Positions 30,161-42,210 of a DNA stretch of 64,000 nt are shown here, one piece after another (the first letter of the stretch is position 1; each line of letters begins with the position of its first letter). The position numbers and the translations under genes were made by a program. The notes under the pieces are model-generated. The model was not told the DNA's origin. It made no database searches and worked only from the letters and a program-made list of their open reading frames with translations. The stretch is from Sulfurovum sp. (lineage in GTDB: Bacteria; Campylobacterota; Campylobacteria; Campylobacterales; Sulfurovaceae): positions 1 through 64,000 of the forward strand of contig JAMORY010000013.1 of assembly GCA_027063305.1 (NCBI GenBank), in the 5' to 3' direction.

Positions 30161-31354
30161 TTAGTGAAGGTCCTCGTTGAGTTTCACTTCTCTTGTACTT
30201 CTGCGTGCGATGATCTCACCGGTCGTAGAGTTCTGGCGGTAGTGGATACCGTTGAGCCCTTGAAGCTCCTCACCTTTGAAGGTCGTCTTGTTCTCAAGCT
30301 TTGCATCCGGGTTTGCCGCTTTGATCTTCTCAAGCTCTTCAGGAGCGATCTTAATTTTGGTTCCCGCCAAGATGGTCACACCCGCATCAACGATACATCC
30401 ATCACCAAGTGGGAGTCCTGTGACTGAGTTGGCACCAAGAAGGGTGTTCTCGCCGATACTGATAGGATTCCCGTCCGTTCCGCTAAGTACACCGAGGATA
30501 CTCGCACCGCCACCGACATCCGAACCGCTTCCGACGATCGCAGAAGAGGAGATACGCCCTTCGACCATCACAGGTCCGAGTGTTCCGGCGTTGAAGTTGA
30601 TGTAGGAAGCTCCAGGCATCACCGTTGTTCCTGCTGCAAGCTGCGCACCCATACGTACTTTGGACGCATCAAGGATACGTGTATTGTCATCTGGGATGAT
30701 GTGCTGGAGGAATCTTGGGAACTTATCTACACTGTCAACTGCAGGGTATGTCCCGTTCATCTTCATCTCGATCTCGTTCTCTCTGAGGTAGTCAAGCTCA
30801 TACGGTGTATTTCCTACCCATGCGACGTTACTGAGAATTCCAAATGCACCATTGAGGTTCACTTTTCTCAGCTCCGCTTTTCTTTGAGAGAGTGCATAGA
30901 GTTTGATGTAGACTGCTTCCACGCTTTGAGGTGCCGCATCTTCAAAGAGGAATACGATACGGTAGTTCTTCCCGATATCTTCCATATTCGCCAATGTTTT
31001 GATCACCTGTACGTTCTTGTGTGCATCACCTGTCGCTTCTGCCGCATACGGTGCAAATGCCGCCATTGCATTTTGAACGAAGTTATCATTGATCGTTGCG
31101 ACAAACTCACTTCCTGAGAAGTCCACGTTGACCTTCGCTTCCTGCAACGCTCTAATGAAGACTGCCGCAGAACCGAAGTTCTCTTTCCAGTTAATGAGCC
31201 CGAAGCTTGCCTGAAGTACCTTCTCCGCATTCTTCTGTCCTCTGTCGACTCTTGCGATACCAAATGCCAAAGGTTCTCTGTAACCCTCTTGTGAAGTCGT
31301 CTGGGCGACCAGTTTTTTGAACTCTTCTGTTGATGTAAGCGTTTCAATTGCCAT
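30161..31354 (-). CDS. dapD: 2,3,4,5-tetrahydropyridine-2,6-dicarboxylate N-succinyltransferase (long form)
   Basis: Left-handed beta-helix region VRMGAQLAAGTTVMPGASYINFNAGTLGPVMVEGRIS. Confidence 0.9.
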   Translation of the reverse strand: MAIETLTSTEEFKKLVAQTTSQEGYREPLAFGIARVDRGQKNAEKVLQASFGLINWKENFGSAAVFIRALQEAKVNVDFSGSEFVATINDNFVQNAMAAFAPYAAEATGDAHKNVQVIKTLANMEDIGKNYRIVFLFEDAAPQSVEAVYIKLYALSQRKAELRKVNLNGAFGILSNVAWVGNTPYELDYLRENEIEMKMNGTYPAVDSVDKFPRFLQHIIPDDNTRILDASKVRMGAQLAAGTTVMPGASYINFNAGTLGPVMVEGRISSSAIVGSGSDVGGGASILGVLSGTDGNPISIGENTLLGANSVTGLPLGDGCIVDAGVTILAGTKIKIAPEELEKIKAANPDAKLENKTTFKGEELQGLNGIHYRQNSTTGEIIARRSTREVKLNEDLH

Positions 31355-31375
31355 AAAAACTCCTGTGTTTATTTA

Positions 31376-31457
31376 CGTCATGCTGAACTCGATTCAGCAT
31401 CCCCAAAAGGTTCACTGAACAAATTATAAGATCCTGAATCGAGTTTCAGGATGACGG
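31376..31457. repeat. Inverted pair of CGTCATSCTGAAACTCGATTCAGSATC palindromic repeats
   Basis: CGTCATGCTGAACTCGATTCAGCATC and, inverted, GATCCTGAATCGAGTTTCAGGATGACG. Confidence 0.8.
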
Positions 31458-31519
31458 TTCTTAATTTTTAATAACGAGGATTATACTCGGATTTATTTAA
31501 ATTAGTGTAAAATCCGCGC

Positions 31520-31678
31520 ATGAAACACTTACGAGGTCATACCAAGCGGTATTTTTCACTGGCGGTCATTGCAATGTACTCCACACTGCACAAACTCTGC
31601 CGTCTTGACAGCAACTACCAGTACCATAAACTTGCCTACTCTCCGCTGCCTCGTAAAACCGCACCCCCTTCCATATAA
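31520..31678 (+). CDS. Unannotated 52-aa micropeptide, copy 1 (upstream of btuB)
   Basis: MKHLRGHTKRYFSLAVIAMYSTLHKLCRLDSNYQYHKLAYSPLPRKTAPPSI*; paralog at 36212; divergence mostly synonymous or conservative. Confidence 0.72.
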   Translation: MKHLRGHTKRYFSLAVIAMYSTLHKLCRLDSNYQYHKLAYSPLPRKTAPPSI

Positions 31679-31782
31679 CCCGATACCCTAATTCTCGTTT
31701 CCTCGTACAACATAGGAACAAAAACATTCATTTGTCAGAGGATACTCGACCAACACATTTATATATTAAAGGAACTATATCT

Positions 31783-33645
31783 ATGAATAAAACGACTCTC
31801 AGCATTATTACGGCATCACTGCTGTTGGGACAGAGCGCATTTGCACAAGAAGATCTTGGAGAGATCACTGTTACCACAGCCTCACAGACAACACAGACAC
31901 TTGATGAAGTCACATCCAATGTCGATGTGATCACCGCACAGGATATTCAGGACAGAGGCTACACTACCGTAGCACAGGCGCTCAGTTCAGTTACGGGTAT
32001 CTCTTTTGTCAGTAACGGCGGCATTGGAAAAAGCACTTCAGTATTCGTTCGCGGGATGGACAGCAAACATGTGCTTGTACTCATTGACGGAGTACGCTAC
32101 AATGACCCGACCTCTTTGGGTGGCGCACCGTTTGCAGACCTGATGGTAGATGATATCGCACAGATCGAGATCGTCAAGGGGGCGCAGTCGGGCATTTGGG
32201 GAGCAGATGCCAGTGCCGGTGTGATCAATATCATTACCAAAAAAGCACAAAAAGGTACCCATGCCTCTGCACATCTTGAAGGAGGAAGTTTCGGTACATG
32301 GAAGTACGGTGCAACGGTTTCTACGGCAACAGAGAGCTACTATGCAAAGCTCAGCTACAACGTGGTCGATACGGACGGATTTACAACCGTTGCTCCTTAC
32401 GGTGAGGATATCGACAACTTCGAAGATGATGAGTATAAGAATGAAACACTGAACATTCAGGCAGGATACCACTTCAACGCAACCAACAAACTGGAACTCT
32501 TCTATACGCAGATCGATGGTGAAGGCGATGCTGATCCTTACGATATGAGCACATACTCCTTCAACCCCAACGGAGACTACAGACTGGAGAGTACCTACAA
32601 GTTCATGAAAGCCAACTTCAACCATATCGACAGCTTCAATGAACTCAATATCTATGCACAGCGTTCGGACTTCAGCCGTACCTACCCTGATGCGACATTC
32701 GGTCAACACTTTGACGGTACGGTCGATGAGTATGGTATCAACTCCAAGATCGGCTACAGAGAGAAAGATTTTGTACTTATCGGGATTGACCATAAGAACT
32801 ATGAGCATGAGAACAGCATTGACAAAGAGTATGACTCTACCGGCATTTTTGCAACCAACACCAACACATTTGAAGGTATTTTGGGTGGTACGACCATTCT
32901 TACCGAGTCTCTGCGCTTTGACAACTACAGTGATTTCGACAACAAAACTACCGGAAAGATCGGGCTGAAACACATTCATTCACACATCGAAGGGTTGACC
33001 ACCTCGTTCAACTACGGCACAGCCTACAATGTACCGACCATGTATAACCTTTACGATCCGTTTAGCGGTAACCCCGACCTCGATCCTGAAACAGTGGACA
33101 GTTTCGACATCACCATCGACTACAAAGGTTTTAAAGCAACCTACTTCAGCAACCGTATTGACGACATGATCGACTACGTCAGCAAATTCGATGCGGACGG
33201 AAACTGGGTCGGCGGAGGGTATGAGAATGTCTCCGGTACATCCAAGATCAACGGTTTGGAGCTGGCATATACGCAGGAGGTGTATGAGGGCGTGGTACTC
33301 AACACCAACTATACCCACCTTTTCAAAGCCGAAGATAATGACGGAAAAACACTTGCCAGACGTGCCAAAGACACTTTTAACATCGCCCTTGACTACTACG
33401 GCATTGAGAACCTGCACCTTGGTATGGATGCACAGTATATCGGGGAGCGTTACGACAGAGCAGACAAGCAGGGAGAGCAGACCGGAAAGTACACTGTCTT
33501 TAACATGACTGCCGACTATCAGATCACCGATAACGTTCAGGTTTATGGTAAAATCGAGAATCTCGGTGACAAATACTACCAGAGTGTTTATGGCTATGCA
33601 ACCAGTCCAAGAGCATTCTACATCGGTGTAAGAGGGAAAATCTAA
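31783..33645 (+). CDS. btuB: TonB-dependent receptor, BtuB-like
   Basis: Signal peptide MNKTTLSIITASLLLGQSAFA; plug domain GIGKSTSVFVRGMDSKHVLVLIDGVRYND; C-terminal beta-barrel; followed by B12 ABC transporter genes. Confidence 0.88.
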   Translation: MNKTTLSIITASLLLGQSAFAQEDLGEITVTTASQTTQTLDEVTSNVDVITAQDIQDRGYTTVAQALSSVTGISFVSNGGIGKSTSVFVRGMDSKHVLVLIDGVRYNDPTSLGGAPFADLMVDDIAQIEIVKGAQSGIWGADASAGVINIITKKAQKGTHASAHLEGGSFGTWKYGATVSTATESYYAKLSYNVVDTDGFTTVAPYGEDIDNFEDDEYKNETLNIQAGYHFNATNKLELFYTQIDGEGDADPYDMSTYSFNPNGDYRLESTYKFMKANFNHIDSFNELNIYAQRSDFSRTYPDATFGQHFDGTVDEYGINSKIGYREKDFVLIGIDHKNYEHENSIDKEYDSTGIFATNTNTFEGILGGTTILTESLRFDNYSDFDNKTTGKIGLKHIHSHIEGLTTSFNYGTAYNVPTMYNLYDPFSGNPDLDPETVDSFDITIDYKGFKATYFSNRIDDMIDYVSKFDADGNWVGGGYENVSGTSKINGLELAYTQEVYEGVVLNTNYTHLFKAEDNDGKTLARRAKDTFNIALDYYGIENLHLGMDAQYIGERYDRADKQGEQTGKYTVFNMTADYQITDNVQVYGKIENLGDKYYQSVYGYATSPRAFYIGVRGKI

Positions 33646-33669
33646 AAAGTGTTCAGCGTTTAGAAAACA

Positions 33670-33691
33670 GGAATCGGGACTTCAGTCCCGC
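33670..33691. repeat. Hairpin repeat GGAATCGGGACTTCAGTCCCGC between btuB and btuF
   Basis: Perfect CGGGAC-TTCA-GTCCCG hairpin; same family as 28005-28051. Confidence 0.65.
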
Positions 33692-33711
33692 TTTAACCAA
33701 GAGAGAAATAT

Positions 33712-34536
33712 ATGAAACAATTACTCCATTTTATTGTACTGTTTGTTTTTCTCAATGCTTCCGAACGCATCGTCACCCTCTCCCCTGCCATCAATGAAAT
33801 AGTCTATGCCCTTGGTGCGGGTGATCAAGTGGTAGGGAACACCACCTACTCTCTCTACCCTGAAGCTTCCAAAAAAGTCACCAAAGTAGGCGGCTACTTC
33901 TCTCCGAACTTGGAGAAAATACTCTCATTAAACCCTACCCTTATCATCATGCAACCTAATAACCGTAAACTGGCAAGACAACTTGAAAAACTGCATATCA
34001 AAACAGAGATCGTCGCCATCGACAGGCTTGAACATATTGAACACGCCATTGTGAAACTAGGAAAGGTATTGCATCAAGAGCCAAAAGCACAAGAGATCGT
34101 CAGCCAAATTGAAAAGGCGCTTCAAGACCTTAAAGGCATTGTCTCCAACAAAAAGATCCTCATTGTCTTTGGACATAACACCAAGATAGCAAGTAACATC
34201 TTTGTCGCAGGGCAGAACCTCTACTTTGATGACATCATCAACGCTTCGGGCAATACCAATGCCCTGCACTCTACCCGCAAAGGGCAGCCGGTACTCAACC
34301 GTGAGAACATCATTGCGCTCAACCCTGACATTGTCATTCTTTTGGCACACTCCATGAAAGAGCGAGGGCTAACCAAGCAAGACCTCATCGACCCGTGGCT
34401 GGAGCTGCCCATTAACGCAGCCAAACAGAAAAACATCTACATCATTGACAAAGTGTACTCCGGCATCCCAAGTGACCGGCTGGTACTCTTTTTGAATGAC
34501 ATGAAAGCGATCCTCCATGCCGTTAACGATAAATAA
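33712..34536 (+). CDS. btuF: Cobalamin ABC transporter substrate-binding protein
   Basis: RIVTLSPAINEIVYALGAGDQVVGNTTYSLYPEA. Confidence 0.85.
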   Translation: MKQLLHFIVLFVFLNASERIVTLSPAINEIVYALGAGDQVVGNTTYSLYPEASKKVTKVGGYFSPNLEKILSLNPTLIIMQPNNRKLARQLEKLHIKTEIVAIDRLEHIEHAIVKLGKVLHQEPKAQEIVSQIEKALQDLKGIVSNKKILIVFGHNTKIASNIFVAGQNLYFDDIINASGNTNALHSTRKGQPVLNRENIIALNPDIVILLAHSMKERGLTKQDLIDPWLELPINAAKQKNIYIIDKVYSGIPSDRLVLFLNDMKAILHAVNDK

Positions 34537-35215
34537 CTACGCTGACGGCATCCTGCACGGTGTCAGTTTTGAAGTACAAAGAGGAGAGAACCTCATCATC
34601 CTCGGTGCCAACGGTGTGGGCAAGACCACACTGGCAAAGGTACTTTGCGGACTTCTGCCAAGCGATGCGGTGAACATTGGTGGCATGATCCCTTCCCAAA
34701 CCTACTCAGAGGAGCGAGCCAAACGCATCAACTATATCCCTGCCAAGATGGAAGTCTTTGATAGCTATTTGAGCGTAGCGGAGTTTTTGTCACTGAGTCA
34801 TTTCAACCAAACAATAAGCATCGACGAAGCACTCTCGAAGCTAAATATTTTACACCTTAAGACACATTCCTGTCAAACACTCAGCTCGGGAGAATCACAA
34901 CTGGTATTGACGGCTTCAGCATTACTTCACAGTGCTGTCTATACCCTCTTTGACGAGCCCACCGCAAACCTCGACCCCACCCGCATGAAGATGCTTTTTG
35001 AATTGCTCAAGAACGATACCACACTACCAAGCAAGATCATCATTACCCACAATCTCGATCTTGCCTACCGCCTGGGGTTTGATGTGCTTTACCTCAAAGA
35101 GGGACGGGTAGCCTTTCATGGCAGCAGCGAAGCGTTTTTTGATCAGACACATCTGGATGCGCTCTATGGCAGCAGCGTACAGAAGGTCAATAACCATGTG
35201 GTGGTGGCATTATGA
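34517..35215 (+). CDS. btuD: ABC transporter ATP-binding protein (B12 uptake)
   Basis: ILGANGVGKTTLAKVLCG; LSSGESQLVLTASAL; TLFDEPTANLDP. Confidence 0.85.
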   Translation: MPLTINNYADGILHGVSFEVQRGENLIILGANGVGKTTLAKVLCGLLPSDAVNIGGMIPSQTYSEERAKRINYIPAKMEVFDSYLSVAEFLSLSHFNQTISIDEALSKLNILHLKTHSCQTLSSGESQLVLTASALLHSAVYTLFDEPTANLDPTRMKMLFELLKNDTTLPSKIIITHNLDLAYRLGFDVLYLKEGRVAFHGSSEAFFDQTHLDALYGSSVQKVNNHVVVAL

Positions 35216-36150
35216 AAAAGCTGCTCCTGCTTACTTCCCTCCTGCTTTTGGCAGCCGCCCCCTTCTTCGGACAGATCGACCTGCCTTTGGACAAACTCCT
35301 GCAAAGCGGAACGATGGAGCATCAGGTCTTTTTTGAACTCCGGCTGCCCCGTGTGCTGTTGGCATTTTTGGTCGGTGGCATCCTCTCTCTGGGCGGGCTG
35401 GTCTTTCAAGTGGTGTTCCGAAATCCTATGAGCACCCCGTTTACCCTCGGTGTGGCAAGCGGGGCTACCCTCTTTACCGCCATTGCCATCATCGCAGGGT
35501 TCAGTACTTTTAGTCCTCTCTTTGCATTCCTTGGGGCTATGCTCACAGTCATTGTACTCTTTGCCATTGCCGCACGTTTTCAAAATTATGATCCTACGGC
35601 ACTCTTGCTGGTAGGGATCGCCCTGAGCTTCTTCTACTCCGCCGCCCTTATGGTGGCGTTCTACCTCTCCACCCTTCAAGAGAGCTATGAGATCATGCGA
35701 TTTACCATGGGGAGTCTCGATGTGGTTGGCTTTAACAACATCTGGCTGCTGGGCATGGTCTCTGGGCTGCTGCTTGGACTTGTTTACCACTACCGCAAAG
35801 CCTTTCAAGCCCTGCTTACATCCTACGAGTTCGCCTTTTTGCAAGGTATCCACGTCAAAAAGCTCAGTTACACCCTGCTTTTTGGCGTCTCGGTAGCCGT
35901 AGGGGTGGCTGTGAGCATGACTGGCCCCATCGGCTTTGTAGGACTCATCATCCCCCACATCCTCAAAACCCTCTACCGTGTCAGTGCGGACAAACTGCTG
36001 TGGCAGAGCTTTTTTTACGGCGGCATATTCCTCGTACTTAGCGACCTCATCGCTCGTAATCTCGGGGAGAGTGATCTGCCCATAGGTGTGGTCACTTCTT
36101 TTGTGGGTGCGCCGTTTTTTATCTATCTGTTATTGCAAAGAAAATCATAA
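35212..36150 (+). CDS. btuC: FecCD-family permease (B12 uptake)
   Basis: LRLPRVLLAFLVGGILSLGGLVFQVVFRNPMSTPFTLGVASGA. Confidence 0.9.
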   Translation: MKKLLLLTSLLLLAAAPFFGQIDLPLDKLLQSGTMEHQVFFELRLPRVLLAFLVGGILSLGGLVFQVVFRNPMSTPFTLGVASGATLFTAIAIIAGFSTFSPLFAFLGAMLTVIVLFAIAARFQNYDPTALLLVGIALSFFYSAALMVAFYLSTLQESYEIMRFTMGSLDVVGFNNIWLLGMVSGLLLGLVYHYRKAFQALLTSYEFAFLQGIHVKKLSYTLLFGVSVAVGVAVSMTGPIGFVGLIIPHILKTLYRVSADKLLWQSFFYGGIFLVLSDLIARNLGESDLPIGVVTSFVGAPFFIYLLLQRKS

Positions 36151-36211
36151 TTTATAATAAGAATTCTTCTACATCAGGGCTGTTTGAGCTTTCCTTGGGT
36201 AAAATCCGCGC

Positions 36212-36373
36212 ATGAAACACTTACGAGGTCATACCAAGCGGTATTTTTCACTGGCGATCATTGCAATGTACTCCACGCTACACAAACTCTGCCGTCTTGA
36301 TATCAACTACAAATACCATAAGCTTCCCTACTCACCTCTCCCACAGAAGACAGCACCCCCTCTTTGTGACTAA
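36212..36373 (+). CDS. Unannotated 53-aa micropeptide, copy 2 (upstream of cbiM)
   Basis: MKHLRGHTKRYFSLAIIAMYSTLHKLCRLDINYKYHKLPYSPLPQKTAPPLCD*; 5' flank TAAAATCCGCGC identical to copy 1. Confidence 0.72.
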   Translation: MKHLRGHTKRYFSLAIIAMYSTLHKLCRLDINYKYHKLPYSPLPQKTAPPLCD

Positions 36374-36398
36374 TATCAATAAAATCTAAGTATAGTAT

Positions 36399-36454
36399 GG
36401 TTATATAGTCTCATATAACCTTTGAAAACCGGTGTGTATTTTTAAATAAACACA
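36399..36454. promoter_or_regulatory. Two palindromes upstream of cbiM
   Basis: GGTTATAT-AGTCTC-ATATAACC (36399-36420) and imperfect TGTGTATTTTTAAATAAACACA (36433-36454). Confidence 0.5.
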
Positions 36455-36497
36455 AATCATAAACATAATTAGAACTTATGACTTAAGGAGTCACAAA

Positions 36498-37178
36498 ATG
36501 CATATTGAAGCGGGTGTGGTACAAGGTGCCAAAATGATATTAGGATACGCAACGGCGGCAGGAACCGTTGCTATGGGTGCCAAGTTGGCATGGGAGAACA
36601 TTAAAGAGTACGGACTTGTCTCTTTTCTTTTAAAGACACTGATCGCTACGGTTATTGTCTTTAGCTGTTTTGAAGTACTGCCGCACTACCCTGTCGGGGT
36701 GAGTGAAGTGCATCTTATTTTGGGGACGACCATCTTCTTGATGTTCGGTGCGGGGCCTGCAATGGTCGCTTTGGCACTGGGGCTTCTTATTCAAGGGGTC
36801 TTCTTCGCACCATTCGACCTTCCGCAGTACGGGATCAACGTTACAACACTTCTTGCCAGTATGCTCCTGTTGAACATGGCGGCAAAACGTATCATCCCTC
36901 AGAATATCGCCTACAAGGACATCACCTATACACAGATGCTCAAAATGTCCGTGATCTGGGAAGGAAGCATCGTAACATGGGTTGCTTTCTGGGCGTTCTA
37001 CGGGCAAGGGTTCAGTGCAGAGAACATTCAGAACGTCTTGAGCTTTGGCGGGTCATATATGCTTGTGATCATTATCGAGCCGCTTATCGACCTTGCCGTA
37101 CTCGCAGCGGTCAAAGCGTTCAACTCGGGTAAATGCAACCTCTTGCTTGACAAGCGTGTGAACAACTGTAAAGCCTAA
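36498..37178 (+). CDS. cbiM: CbiM-like energy-coupling-factor cobalt transporter component
   Basis: MHIEAGVVQGAK start; multi-TM; first gene of the cbi operon. Confidence 0.75.
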   Translation: MHIEAGVVQGAKMILGYATAAGTVAMGAKLAWENIKEYGLVSFLLKTLIATVIVFSCFEVLPHYPVGVSEVHLILGTTIFLMFGAGPAMVALALGLLIQGVFFAPFDLPQYGINVTTLLASMLLLNMAAKRIIPQNIAYKDITYTQMLKMSVIWEGSIVTWVAFWAFYGQGFSAENIQNVLSFGGSYMLVIIIEPLIDLAVLAAVKAFNSGKCNLLLDKRVNNCKA

Positions 37179-37181
37179 CAG

Positions 37182-38000
37182 ATGAAACGCTACCGTCACC
37201 ACAACAAAGACAAAGCGATCGTTCTTGCCTGTTTCGGCTCGGTAATCGAACAGCAAATGTACCTCGACCTCAAAGCCGAGGTCGAATCGCGTTTCGAGGG
37301 GATCGATGTATTTCTCTCCTTCTCCTCAAGAATGGTACTCAAAGACCTGCATCGACGCGGCATGGCATACAAGAACCTGACACAGACCCTTGCCGATGTC
37401 GATATGCTCGGATACCGTCATATCGTCGTCGCTTCAATCAACCTCTTCCCGACCGATGAGCATGAGCTTCTCATACGTACGGTCAAAGGGTTCAAGATGT
37501 TCTCGCTTGCCAATCTCCGCTACACCAAAGCGATCATCAACAAGACCAAAGAGAGCTCGCTTGCGCTCAAAGCACTCGATGAGGCTATCACACAACCCAA
37601 TCAGGCGAACCTCTATGTCATCCACGGTGTGCCGGTACTTGACCTTCCGGGACTTCACTCAGTCAGCTACACAGAGCAGTTCTTGCGTATGATAGGCAAA
37701 TACAACTATACCTGTTCTTTAGAGGGGGCATTCCCCTACTATTCCATCAAAGAATCCCTTATCACACAGATGAAGGCTGACGGTATCACTGCGGTGCAGA
37801 TCGTTCCGATGCTGCTGGTAAGCGGGAACCACTACCGTAAAGATATGGTTGAGATCACAGAGGAGCTCTCAGAACACTTTGAGGCGAAGATCGTCCCTTC
37901 ACAAAGCCGCTCCGAACGCTTTAACCTCATTGAGCTTGAAGATATCAGAGCGATCATCATGCAGAATATTCAAGAAGAGATCACCAAACTTGGATGCTAA
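37182..38000 (+). CDS. cbiK: Sirohydrochlorin cobaltochelatase CbiK
   Basis: AIVLACFGSVIEQQ..., two-domain CbiK-like chelatase in a cbi operon. Confidence 0.82.
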   Translation: MKRYRHHNKDKAIVLACFGSVIEQQMYLDLKAEVESRFEGIDVFLSFSSRMVLKDLHRRGMAYKNLTQTLADVDMLGYRHIVVASINLFPTDEHELLIRTVKGFKMFSLANLRYTKAIINKTKESSLALKALDEAITQPNQANLYVIHGVPVLDLPGLHSVSYTEQFLRMIGKYNYTCSLEGAFPYYSIKESLITQMKADGITAVQIVPMLLVSGNHYRKDMVEITEELSEHFEAKIVPSQSRSERFNLIELEDIRAIIMQNIQEEITKLGC

Positions 38001-38670: not shown

Positions 38671-39384
38671 ATGGCATTTATCCAAGAGCAACCGCCCATC
38701 AACATCGGTGCCGATATCTCCGTACGTTCATTTGAGATGATCGAAGAGGAGCTTCAGCACTACCCACAGGCAAAGAACTTCAACCAAGAGGAGCTCGCTG
38801 TCATCTCACGGCTCATCCATACCACCACCTGCTTCAAGGAGATACTTGACAATATCTACTTCTCTCCCAATGCCTTACAACGCATTAAGGGACTTTTGGA
38901 GCAAAAAGCCAAGATCATTGTCGATGTCAATATGATCAAGGTTGGGCTGAGCCAGTTCTACCTCGATACCTACGGCAATGAGGTCATCTGCTACATCAAT
39001 GAACCCTTTACCTATGAACATGCCGCCAAGAACAAGACAACACGCAGTTACGCCGCCGTGGTCGAGGCGATCAAACGCCACAAGGATGAACCGATGGTAC
39101 TGGTATGCGGGAATGCCCCTACCTTCATCTATGCCGCCATCAATACCCTGCTCGATGAGGGGGTCGACCTGAGTCGTGTCGCACTTCTGCTCTTTCCTGT
39201 CGGATTCGTCAACGTACTCGAATCCAAAGAGTACGGCAAGCGTTTTAGCGAACACTTCGATGTACCCGCTGTCATCATGCAAGGGCGCTTCGGAAGCTCG
39301 ACCATGGGCGTTGCCACGCTTCATGCGACATACAAGCTCATCAAAGATTACGATGGCACCACACACTACAACGGGAAGAAGTAA
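38671..39384 (+). CDS. cbiC: Precorrin-8X methylmutase
   Basis: SRLIHTTTCFKEILDNIYFS, IVDVNMIKVGLS, FPVGFVNVLESKE. Confidence 0.93.
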   Translation: MAFIQEQPPINIGADISVRSFEMIEEELQHYPQAKNFNQEELAVISRLIHTTTCFKEILDNIYFSPNALQRIKGLLEQKAKIIVDVNMIKVGLSQFYLDTYGNEVICYINEPFTYEHAAKNKTTRSYAAVVEAIKRHKDEPMVLVCGNAPTFIYAAINTLLDEGVDLSRVALLLFPVGFVNVLESKEYGKRFSEHFDVPAVIMQGRFGSSTMGVATLHATYKLIKDYDGTTHYNGKK

Positions 39385-39386
39385 CG

Positions 39387-40049
39387 ATGTGCGCATACTA
39401 TGAAGATGGTCAAGAGAAGATCAGACAAGGAGATATCGCCAACTATCTGACCAATCAGATAGAGATACTCGAAGCCAAACATCTCAAAGAGAGCAAGACC
39501 ATGCGCATCCGTTACCGCAGTAACGACAAGGAGATATCGCTTGAAGTCCCCTACAAGACGGTCATGAACGCCATGACGCTCATTTCGCGAGCGCCAAAAA
39601 AAGAGCCCAAGATCAATGAGATGGGACAAGAGGTGGTCGAGGGCTACGCCTGCAAACCCAAAGACTTCGACCCCGACCGTCCCATCATGCACTTTAAGTA
39701 CCAGATATTCATCTGTGACGATGAGCGGTGTACCAAGGCGGCAAAGACCGATAAGGCGGCATGGCTGAGGGAGATACTCAAAGATATGGGGCTCAATCAA
39801 GGAAAAGACCGTATCAAGATCTCCCGAACGGGCTGTTTCGGTGCCTGCCGTTTTCGTCAGGTCGCCGAGTGTGTCGCCAATACGCAAGCCAACGGAAAAG
39901 CGGAGAACAATGCACTCTGGTTCAGACACACCCACAGATGGGACGAAAAGCAGTGGCGTGCACTCTTTGCTGCACTCAGAGATGATAAAGCGCTCTCTTC
40001 ATGCATCGATGCATCGGCTTATATCCCGATGAAGGTCTACGGAGAGTAG
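39387..40049 (+). CDS. Thioredoxin-like [2Fe-2S] ferredoxin-domain protein within the B12 operon
   Basis: FICDDERCTKAAK...KISRTGCFGACRFRQVAECVAN cysteine pattern. Confidence 0.75.
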   Translation: MCAYYEDGQEKIRQGDIANYLTNQIEILEAKHLKESKTMRIRYRSNDKEISLEVPYKTVMNAMTLISRAPKKEPKINEMGQEVVEGYACKPKDFDPDRPIMHFKYQIFICDDERCTKAAKTDKAAWLREILKDMGLNQGKDRIKISRTGCFGACRFRQVAECVANTQANGKAENNALWFRHTHRWDEKQWRALFAALRDDKALSSCIDASAYIPMKVYGE

Positions 40050-40050
40050 C

Positions 40051-41037
40051 ATGAAAGAGCAAAGTGCTCCGCTGCGTAGAGGCTATACCACAGGCGTTCA
40101 CGCTGCGGTAGCCTTCGGTGCGGCACTTGAAGGGCTCTTGGCATCGGGAGAGACCACGCAGAGCCGAACAGAGAAGATGGACAATGACGACCTCGATGTC
40201 ACCAAAGGGTGCGAGATCGTCGTTACCTGTAGCTATTATCGTGATGTGCTGGTATGTAACCCCATTGCGCATACGCCCTACACCATCGGAAAGATCGAAC
40301 TCTATGCCGGAGAGGGGGTCGGGGTGGTGACCAAAGCGGGGCTCAAGCCGCCCAAGGGCTACCCCGCCATCAACCCCGCTCCGCTAAAAGCCATGGAAGC
40401 GAGGGTCGCACACCATGCCCACAAGATCACAAGGCACATCTATGCGACCATCTCCGTTACCGACGGACAAGCACTTGCCAAAAAGACGGCAAATGCCAAA
40501 GTGGGCGTGCTTGGAGGCATCTCCATTCTAGGCAGTACCGGTATTGTCAAACCCGTCTCCAGCGATGCCTATCTCGACTCCATCGCGACCGAGATCGGTT
40601 TTGCCAGGGAGAACGGCTACGAAAAACTTGTGCTGACACTGGGCAACAGTGCCTTGGCATATGCCAAAACGAACTACGACGAAGCGCAGATCGTCGAGAT
40701 AGGCAACTTCGTCCACGATGCGCTAGAGATCGCACAAGAGAAAGGGATGTACGATATCACATTCATCTGCGGTATCGCCAAAGCGGTCAAAGTGATGCAA
40801 GGGTGCAAAAATACCCACAACCGATTCGGCAGCATCGACTTTGAAGCGCTCTGTATGCAGATCAAAGAGGATCTCAATATCGAGATAGCCCATCAGAAGC
40901 TCAATACCGTCAAAGGGTTGACCAAAGAGCTGGGCGCTTATGCGGATGCCTTTTACCATATGGTCAAGGCTGGAACAGACGAACAGATCAAACATTGGTT
41001 CCCGAACCTCAAGGTCGGAACCGTCATAGTGAGGTAA
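40051..41037 (+). CDS. cbiD: Cobalt-precorrin-5B C1-methyltransferase
   Basis: RRGYTTGVHAAVAFGAAL; GEGVGVVTKAGL; LGGISILGSTGIVKPVS. Confidence 0.95.
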   Translation: MKEQSAPLRRGYTTGVHAAVAFGAALEGLLASGETTQSRTEKMDNDDLDVTKGCEIVVTCSYYRDVLVCNPIAHTPYTIGKIELYAGEGVGVVTKAGLKPPKGYPAINPAPLKAMEARVAHHAHKITRHIYATISVTDGQALAKKTANAKVGVLGGISILGSTGIVKPVSSDAYLDSIATEIGFARENGYEKLVLTLGNSALAYAKTNYDEAQIVEIGNFVHDALEIAQEKGMYDITFICGIAKAVKVMQGCKNTHNRFGSIDFEALCMQIKEDLNIEIAHQKLNTVKGLTKELGAYADAFYHMVKAGTDEQIKHWFPNLKVGTVIVR

Positions 41038-41040
41038 ACA

Positions 41041-42210
41041 ATGCTAACGATTACAGGAAACGGTATGGGCGGATATACGTTCAATAACCTAACCGTCGAT
41101 ACCGATGCGTACGATGTCATTATTTGTGACAAGAACTTCGAGGTCGACGCACCGAATGTTAAAAAGCTCTCCTACTCAGAGGCGCGATCGTATATTCTGG
41201 AACACTACGAGCATATGCAGATCCTCTATGTGGTCACAGGCAGTCCTTTCTTCTACTCGGCGGGAATACTCCTTGCCAAACAGTTGCCCAAAGATGCCGT
41301 AAAGATCATCGATAACACCTCCTCCCTGCGCTATATGCAGGCAACTTGCCACTTTGCAGATGCGCAGACGGCACACCTCTCCATCCACGGGCGTGCGCAC
41401 ATCGACCTTGAAGCGTTCCTGACAAAGCCCTACACCTTCATTCTTTGTGATGAGAAGAGCATTGAGAAGGTACGCCGCGCGACAGCCTATCTGCCCAAAG
41501 ATGCCCTCAAGGTGACCATCGGCTACAAGCTTGGCTACCCCGATGAGCAGATAGCCCCCATCGATCTGGCGCAAGTACCAGATACGTATGACCTGTGTGC
41601 CCCCTATGTGCTGCTCATAGAGCGCTGCTTCACCCCCATACCCTCCGTATGCAGTGACGATCTCTTTGCTACCGAGCGCGGGATGATCACCAAACAGTAC
41701 AAACGCCACCTCTCCTTGCAGCACTTGGACCTTTCTGGCAATCAACTGCTCTGGGATGTAGGTGCGGGCAGCGGAAGTTGTGCCATTGAGGCGTACAAAC
41801 GCTACCGTGTCCGTACGGTTCTTTTCGAAAAACAGCCCCAGCGCTGCGACTTCATCCGTCAGAACCTCCGTACGCACTATGTGTGTGACACACAGCTGAT
41901 CGAAGGTGATGCCCAAACACACTTTGACTCACTCACACAAGACCCCGACCGCATCTTTGTAGGCGGCGGTGGCGAGAAGGTCATCGCACGCCTTCCTTAC
42001 CTCTATGAGAGACTGACTAATGAAGGGGTGATGCTCATCAATGCCATTACCCTCAAGAACCTGACCCAGATGATACAGGTGCTCAATGAAGCGAAGATCG
42101 CCTACAAGGTCATCTCGCTCTCACTCACCACCTACAAAGGAAGCCTTGACCTTATCGAGCCCGAAAGACAGCTGTTTCAAATCAAAGTATGCAAAGGAGC
42201 ATCCCAATGA
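41041..42210 (+). CDS. cbiET: Fused cobalt-precorrin-7 C5-methyltransferase / decarboxylating C15-methyltransferase
   Basis: N-terminal CbiE (MLTITGNGMGGYT), C-terminal CbiT (LLWDVGAGSGSCAIEAYK). Confidence 0.92.
   Translation: MLTITGNGMGGYTFNNLTVDTDAYDVIICDKNFEVDAPNVKKLSYSEARSYILEHYEHMQILYVVTGSPFFYSAGILLAKQLPKDAVKIIDNTSSLRYMQATCHFADAQTAHLSIHGRAHIDLEAFLTKPYTFILCDEKSIEKVRRATAYLPKDALKVTIGYKLGYPDEQIAPIDLAQVPDTYDLCAPYVLLIERCFTPIPSVCSDDLFATERGMITKQYKRHLSLQHLDLSGNQLLWDVGAGSGSCAIEAYKRYRVRTVLFEKQPQRCDFIRQNLRTHYVCDTQLIEGDAQTHFDSLTQDPDRIFVGGGGEKVIARLPYLYERLTNEGVMLINAITLKNLTQMIQVLNEAKIAYKVISLSLTTYKGSLDLIEPERQLFQIKVCKGASQ

Follow-up and report, generated by a model that had tools for sequence, protein, structure and literature searches.

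Two short leader ORFs in a cobalamin gene region of Sulfurovum sp.

The 64,000-nucleotide (nt) stretch of Sulfurovum sp. contig JAMORY010000013.1 analysed here (positions 1 to 64,000, hereafter the window) contains two related short open reading frames (ORFs), each of which precedes a group of genes for vitamin B12 (cobalamin). The initial annotation had placed them at 31520-31678 and 36212-36373, and both were found exactly there on the plus strand, encoding 52 and 53 amino acids (aa), respectively. It had also estimated that they end some 105-125 nt before B12 or cobalt import genes; the measured distances are 104 nt from the stop codon of leader 1 to the ATG of btuB (31783) and 124 nt from that of leader 2 to the ATG of cbiM (36498). 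The identities of the neighbouring genes, assigned by NCBIfam and PDB comparison, indicate one leader per operon: copy 1 heads the operon annotated as B12 uptake and copy 2 the one annotated as cobalamin synthesis (Table 1). The best model for btuB, TIGR01779 (E 1.8e-95), covers its full length, yet the score is under the curated cut-off. The whole host genome contains these two copies of the leader ORF and no more. Sequence comparisons indicate that both ORFs are real and belong to a large, widespread and apparently undescribed family of leaders of the Campylobacterota B12 regulon, which probably switch B12 genes via the ribosome.

Table 1. Features of the two leader loci and the adjoining B12 genes in the window (SD, Shine-Dalgarno sequence)
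Feature	Position	Strand	Basis
-10 element TAAAAT, copy 1 (putative leaderless promoter)	31508..31513	+	sequence; 6 nt before ATG
Leader peptide ORF 1, 52 aa, upstream of btuB	31520..31678	+	
Conserved Pro49-Pro50 codons, copy 1; proposed ribosome pause site	31664..31669	+	
Helix 5' arm CCTTCCATATA, copy 1; proposed SD-blocking helix	31667..31677	+	family-wide complementarity test
Helix 3' arm TATATTAAAGG, copy 1; overlaps btuB SD AAGGA (31769-31773)	31762..31772	+	
btuB, TonB-dependent B12 receptor	31783..33645	+	TIGR01779; best PDB match is BtuB
btuF-like substrate-binding protein	33712..34536	+	NCBIfam comparison
btuD-like ATPase	34517..35215	+	NCBIfam comparison
btuC-like permease	35212..36150	+	NCBIfam comparison
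-10 element TAAAAT, copy 2 (putative leaderless promoter)	36200..36205	+	sequence; 6 nt before ATG
Leader peptide ORF 2, 53 aa, upstream of cbiM and the cobalamin-synthesis operon	36212..36373	+	
Conserved Pro49-Pro50 codons, copy 2	36356..36361	+	
Helix 5' arm TTTGTGACT, copy 2; tail codons and start of stop codon	36363..36371	+	perfect 9-bp complement
Helix 3' arm AGTCACAAA, copy 2; from cbiM SD (AAGGAG, 36485-36490) to the base before ATG	36489..36497	+	
cbiM, cobalt transporter	36498..37178	+	weak but best NCBIfam match
Sirohydrochlorin cobaltochelatase-like (CbiK/X)	37182..38000	+	NCBIfam
cbiC-like	38671..39384	+	NCBIfam
cbiD	40051..41037	+	NCBIfam, over cut-off
cbiE-cbiT fusion (CbiET)	41041..42210	+	NCBIfam

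Conservation of the leader peptide

Homologs occur well beyond the host genome: tblastn found matches in 87 of 150 related genomes, most of them with E < 1e-17 and far above chance, and the best 80 loci kept from a scan of genome contigs belong nearly all to Sulfurovum, Arcobacteraceae or other Campylobacterota. The alignment set comprises 115 distinct leaders with an ATG, 51-66 aa long, and residues are numbered here after copy 1. The homologs are intact, free of frameshifts and internal stops, bar one truncated copy (L057:4011-4092), in which a stop follows YSTLILL; it lies before cobT-cobU-cobD-cobQ-like genes, named by inspection, and is possibly decaying. Residues Y11, F12, I17, L26 and P50 are invariant. 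A Pro-Pro pair is present in all 115 leaders at a constant distance from the N-terminal motif, mostly as KTSPP (73 leaders) or KTAPP (28), with RAPP in two and minor forms in the rest. The tail that follows is unconserved and has 1-13 aa in 114 leaders and 16 aa in one. None of the His and Cys residues is invariant (H3 63%, H24 55%, C27 59%, H36 90%), and position 7 is mostly Tyr.

The initial annotation had taken the mostly synonymous differences between the two copies as a sign of selection on the peptide, and substitution counts bear this out. Over 47 codons, 11.5 synonymous changes stand against 5.5 non-synonymous ones, giving a synonymous rate (dS) of 0.44, a non-synonymous rate (dN) of 0.054 and a ratio of ~0.12; the median dN/dS over 105 close pairs is 0.11 and the estimates overall range from 0.11 to 0.17, which is clear purifying selection and far from a ratio near 1. 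Where at least 95% of the leaders share a residue, codon entropy is 0.30, 0.05 and 1.52 bits at positions 1, 2 and 3, and across the family every one of the six Leu codons occurs at the invariant Leu, as do all four Pro codons at each of the two prolines. Third positions are thus free at conserved residues, a strong argument that an RNA element is an unlikely cause of the conservation of the coding part. Pfam and NCBIfam searches gave zero matches for this family and for the related metE leaders described below. AlphaFold modelling predicts a single helix for the 52-aa leader (residues 14-39, mean predicted local distance difference test score, pLDDT, 81), and the metE leader is modelled with low confidence (pLDDT 66).

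Genomic context and initiation

Among the 109 leaders followed by enough contig to be tested, the next gene encodes a BtuB-like protein in 84 cases, CbiM in 21, a porin-like protein followed by cbiM in two and another protein in two, so that 107 of 109 head a btuB or cbiM operon. The downstream gene is on the same strand, at a median gap of 108 nt. In the two porin cases (L045, L171) the gene between leader and cbiM encodes ~353 aa and may be an outer-membrane channel for cobalt or corrinoids. At one locus (L052), the 52-aa leader precedes a gene for an SsuA-type substrate-binding protein, a candidate new transporter related to B12 or cobamides.

The proposal that the leaders are transcribed without a 5' untranslated region (UTR), made initially from a TAAAAT 6 nt before the ATG and the lack of an SD, holds on sequence grounds for both window copies and extends to the family: a TANWWT hexamer ends 6-7 nt before the ATG in 98 of the 115 leaders, and an SD-like tetramer precedes the ATG in two. 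Leaderless transcripts with TAnAaT are known from Campylobacter jejuni (PMC3847290). The metE leaders, unlike the 52-aa ones, mostly carry an SD, and a leaderless start is therefore dispensable for the mechanism.

Predicted pairing of the leader tail with the downstream SD

Folding computations indicate that the region from leader start to downstream start is more strongly structured than its dinucleotide-shuffled versions (-64 versus -51 kcal/mol, p 4e-14), and the same holds against synonymous shuffles (p 3e-8). Predicted pairing between leader and downstream SD exceeds that in shuffles, and its profile is highest over the second Pro and the codons that follow. Plain SD occlusion is not significant against the dinucleotide shuffle (p 0.29), and significance is reached only for the specific partner, the leader 3' end. 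CC-rich Pro codons pair with the GG of every SD, and a stricter test therefore compared duplex energies of cognate and swapped leader/SD pairs along a sliding leader window in a set filtered at 75% identity. Windows over Pro-Pro and the tail showed cognate-specific complementarity both in the 52-aa leaders (z -6.0 and -3.5; n=70 and 66) and in the metE leaders (z -4.7 and -5.2; n=42 and 39), and the remaining leader windows lacked it (|z| <= 1.6). Since the cognate-specific signal is confined to these windows, the tail is free in protein and constrained as RNA.

Both window copies can form the corresponding helix (Table 1); that of copy 2 is perfect over 9 bp and reaches the base before the cbiM ATG. 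In a simple model with a parked ribosome, the Pro-Pro position raises the predicted accessibility of the SD from 0.36 to 0.52 in the 52-aa leaders (p 3e-7), and a ribosome parked 20 codons earlier leaves it unaffected; the metE leaders follow the same trend more weakly (0.26 to 0.37, p 0.013). No intrinsic terminators were found on the plus strand between leader and gene in the two window regions.

The N-terminal module in other settings

A motif search of 397 genomes of the phylum, with inspection of loci, found the module [R/K]GFxKxYFSLAxIxA in three settings besides the 52-aa leaders. The first is a group of ~112-aa leaders directly upstream of metE, encoding the B12-independent methionine synthase. 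These leaders (mostly 106-121 aa) have a second conserved part, KPCHC[ND]C...RRTGVHPP, and a short tail of 1-11 aa after PP, with tails longer than 30 aa in two. Profile-profile comparison aligns them to the 52-aa leaders with 97% probability, over both the module and the Pro-Pro near residue 50. A metE leader with CHC[ND]C...IPRCPYYxxxFAFRRTGVHPP is seen across the phylum (L056, L059-L062, L099-L128 and others). The second setting comprises ~50-90-aa leaders of TonB receptors in one family of genomes (f16; L238-L242). In the third, the module occupies the signal-peptide position of BtuB-like receptors in families f4, f9, f10, f13, f18 and f20 (14 loci), TIGR01779 being the best model in all three receptors tested. 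At these loci (L211, L214, L215, L217, L219, L220, L222-L227, L243, L247) the BtuB signal peptide reads [R/K]GFxxxYFSLAAIxA, and the fused form replaces the separate leader. Motif matches are nearly all in short frames or in frames of 627-690 aa, and the long frames opened were TonB receptors without exception; because of this near-confinement, the module looks specific to these leader and BtuB settings.

The module also shows an association with MetH. Outside family f10, every motif-bearing genome tested has MetH. Within f10, a family of small genomes, the 29 tested genomes without the N-terminal motif all lack MetH, and both motif-bearing genomes (G434, G452) possess it. Those metE leaders that were read from the MetH-less f10 genera g20 and g43 lack the module but retain their C-terminal part up to PP, that of G434 has both parts, and a metE-type leader was not found in two g34 genomes of f10. 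The C-terminal part, which outlasts the module in MetH-less genomes, may sense something else, such as methionine or zinc.

Control of B12 genes in bacteria is textbook riboswitch territory, and Campylobacterota take up and make B12. The cobalamin riboswitch RF00174 was found in none of 298 genomes of the phylum, with eight of 14 controls positive and with stricter filters that may lose weak matches. Rfam searches of the window (gathering threshold) and of 31300-37200 (permissive) found nothing relevant, and RF00174 is absent from the window.

Other features of the window

A 220-aa ORF at 39387-40049, within the cobalamin synthesis operon, has a ferredoxin-like Cys pattern and no NCBIfam match. 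An imperfect palindrome at 31378-31456, between a minus-strand gene (starting at 31354) and leader 1, resembles a repetitive extragenic palindromic (REP)-type repeat; its permissive Rfam match to a microRNA family is weak and due to chance.

Proposed mechanism and its alternatives

The observations that bear on function are selection on the peptide, the leaderless start, linkage to B12 genes, the fixed Pro-Pro and the co-variation of an RNA arm with the SD. The suggestion of the initial annotation that the ORFs encode a leader peptide of the cobalamin regulon is strongly supported by the 107 of 109 linkage, the peptide selection and the SD complementarity. On sequence and modelling grounds, each ORF is likely to encode a regulatory leader peptide that acts in cis at the head of a B12-regulon mRNA, where ribosome dwell would open an SD-blocking helix. 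Transcription would start at or beside the leader ATG; the Pro-Pro and tail codons would form one helix arm, the other covering the site where ribosomes bind ahead of btuB or cbiM. By slowing down at Pro-Pro, a ribosome would keep the leader arm single-stranded and allow translation of the downstream gene; without such dwell the helix would form and the gene would be off. The signal-peptide-like N-terminal module ([R/K]GFxKxYFSLAxIxA...KL) might report the B12 status via the nascent chain, with B12 itself or a B12-dependent factor as the putative ligand. Two versions can be envisaged for the presumed response to sufficient B12, in both of which the uptake and synthesis genes would be off: (a) the module would halt the ribosome early, so that the helix is never opened, or (b) the pause at Pro-Pro would be relieved. 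Version (a), in which an early halt would also account directly for the BtuB-fused copies, is preferred on parsimony; version (b) fits CruR (see below) and not the fusions. A broader proposal is that the ~20-residue module makes the ribosome cobalamin-responsive wherever it stands, as a modular nascent-peptide B12 sensor used in separate leaders (btuB, cbiM, metE) or as a BtuB signal peptide; this is conceivable, though on balance doubtful.

Several points weigh against the leader mechanism. In the BtuB-fused copies there is no SD further downstream that could be unmasked, so that pause relief alone would be insufficient there; KT(A/S)PP differs from the strong RAPP arrest motif; and AlphaFold shows only a helix for the 52-aa leader, without a binding site. 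The helix of copy 1 is modest (-6.5 kcal/mol), and a ribosome at Pro-Pro leaves the predicted accessibility unchanged in this copy. Two genomes (G078, G098) have MetH, yet their metE leaders are motif-less, and the MetH association within f10 concerns one family, which dominates a count made without phylogenetic correction.

The same leader mechanism could respond to another signal, namely methionine or S-adenosylmethionine (SAM), cobalt, or protein export via the signal-peptide-like N-terminus, in the manner of SecM or CutF. Methionine synthesis is fed by all the targets (btuB, the cbi operon and metE), cobalt is imported by cbiM, the module occupies the signal-peptide position in BtuB-like receptors, and CutF operates by co-translational export (PMC9973294). 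However, the metE leaders of MetH-less f10 genomes drop just this module, though metE still makes methionine there, and the presence of the module on metE leaders makes cobalt or a pure export signal unlikely; this alternative is a minority reading, but one to be taken seriously. It is somewhat unlikely, too, that the output is Rho-dependent polarity, as in CruR, instead of SD masking: the leaders contain 23% C and 14% G (32-33% and 14-15% in the window copies), which recalls the cruR rut region (PMC9426467), but the excess of C over G comes mostly from amino-acid composition, since third codon positions are used much as in the downstream genes, and the co-varying helix points to translation control.

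An ordinary small protein, membrane-bound or metal-binding, acting in trans in B12 or cobalt uptake would agree with the strong amino-acid conservation and with the hydrophobic helical middle in the AlphaFold model, and yet it is improbable. Its tail is variable in protein and co-varies as RNA with the downstream SD, the leader is always immediately upstream in cis and is duplicated, not shared, where there are two operons, and the same module precedes metE, which is not a transporter gene. The metal-binding variant, which the initial annotation had offered as its alternative on account of His and Cys residues, is rejected, as the 115 leaders lack invariant ligands. The least probable explanation is a novel B12 riboswitch whose coding capacity is a by-product: the mRNA region folds more strongly than its shuffles, but with a leaderless start there is no 5' UTR, the codons of conserved residues vary freely at their third position, the Rfam searches gave no relevant match, and frame and peptide are the element common to metE leaders and BtuB signal peptides.

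If this interpretation is correct, the family would be a candidate for the missing B12 regulator in a phylum in which no Cobalamin-family riboswitch was detected (298 genomes). It would predict a coherent regulon of btuB, the cbi operon and metE, define many unnamed small genes and possibly offer an instance of a large cofactor being reported by a nascent chain. Its parts are concrete and easily mutated: the start codon, the Pro-Pro, the two helix arms and the N-terminal motif.

Comparison with known systems

A search of the main texts of open-licence papers did not find B12 leader peptides in Campylobacterota. Riboswitch-based control, exemplified by metE of Mycobacterium tuberculosis, where a cobalamin riboswitch is accompanied by an upstream ORF (uORF; PMC11260477), has the same kinds of targets (btuB, cbi, metE), which are likewise expected to be off at plentiful B12; there, RNA senses B12, whereas here the conserved element is a peptide and Cobalamin-family RNA was not found. 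The amino-acid attenuation leaders MetL, LeuL and TrpL of C. jejuni (PMC11955535, PMC3847290) are also short cis-acting leader ORFs before biosynthesis genes, in the same phylum. In those leaders the regulatory amino acid is itself encoded; the B12 leaders contain a single conserved internal Met instead of a run, and most of their sequence is conserved.

RAPP arrest peptides and SecM monitor protein export (PMC10951233, PMC10951299). They share with the present leaders a regulatory nascent chain, a C-terminal proline-containing arrest site (putative here) and control of the next gene, but the motif here is KT(S/A)PP or TGVHPP, and the R-A-P-P or R-G-P-P at the C-terminus typical of the RAPP peptides is not a feature of the family.

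CruR, a 145-aa DUF2946 uORF product encoded upstream of the TonB transporter gene bfrG in Bordetella pertussis, responds to copper with a CXXC motif, and its C-terminal RAPP is proposed to stall the ribosome, with Rho termination as the output (PMC9426467). The likeness lies in a short uORF before a TonB-dependent transporter gene, a C-terminal xPP and the nascent peptide as (here putative) sensor. The 52-aa family differs in having neither a CXXC nor a Pfam match and in serving B12 genes, not copper; the DUF2946 profile gave zero matches among 30 and 27 leader members at E up to 1.

CutF of Rhodobacter capsulatus binds copper via a conserved motif, and CutF-like proteins are shorter than 150 aa and nearly always have PP among their last 15 residues; further traits are a signal-peptide-like N-terminus, a downstream gene on the same strand and a stem-loop over its ribosome-binding site (PMC9973294). 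Both the 52-aa and the metE leaders are below this length and, apart from the few with longer tails, have PP within the last 15 residues, a same-strand gene lies within 1000 nt, and a stem-loop masking the downstream ribosome-binding site is predicted computationally. The signal-peptide likeness rests on the position of the module in the fused BtuB-like receptors, the hydrophobic stretch being short in the leaders. CutF has its copper motif, but no Cys or His is invariant in the 52-aa leaders; the metE leaders do carry CHC[ND]. The main text of the CutF report names neither B12 genes nor metE as targets. By analogy, the 52-aa family thus shares the logic of CutF and CruR, yet it is not a member of those families.

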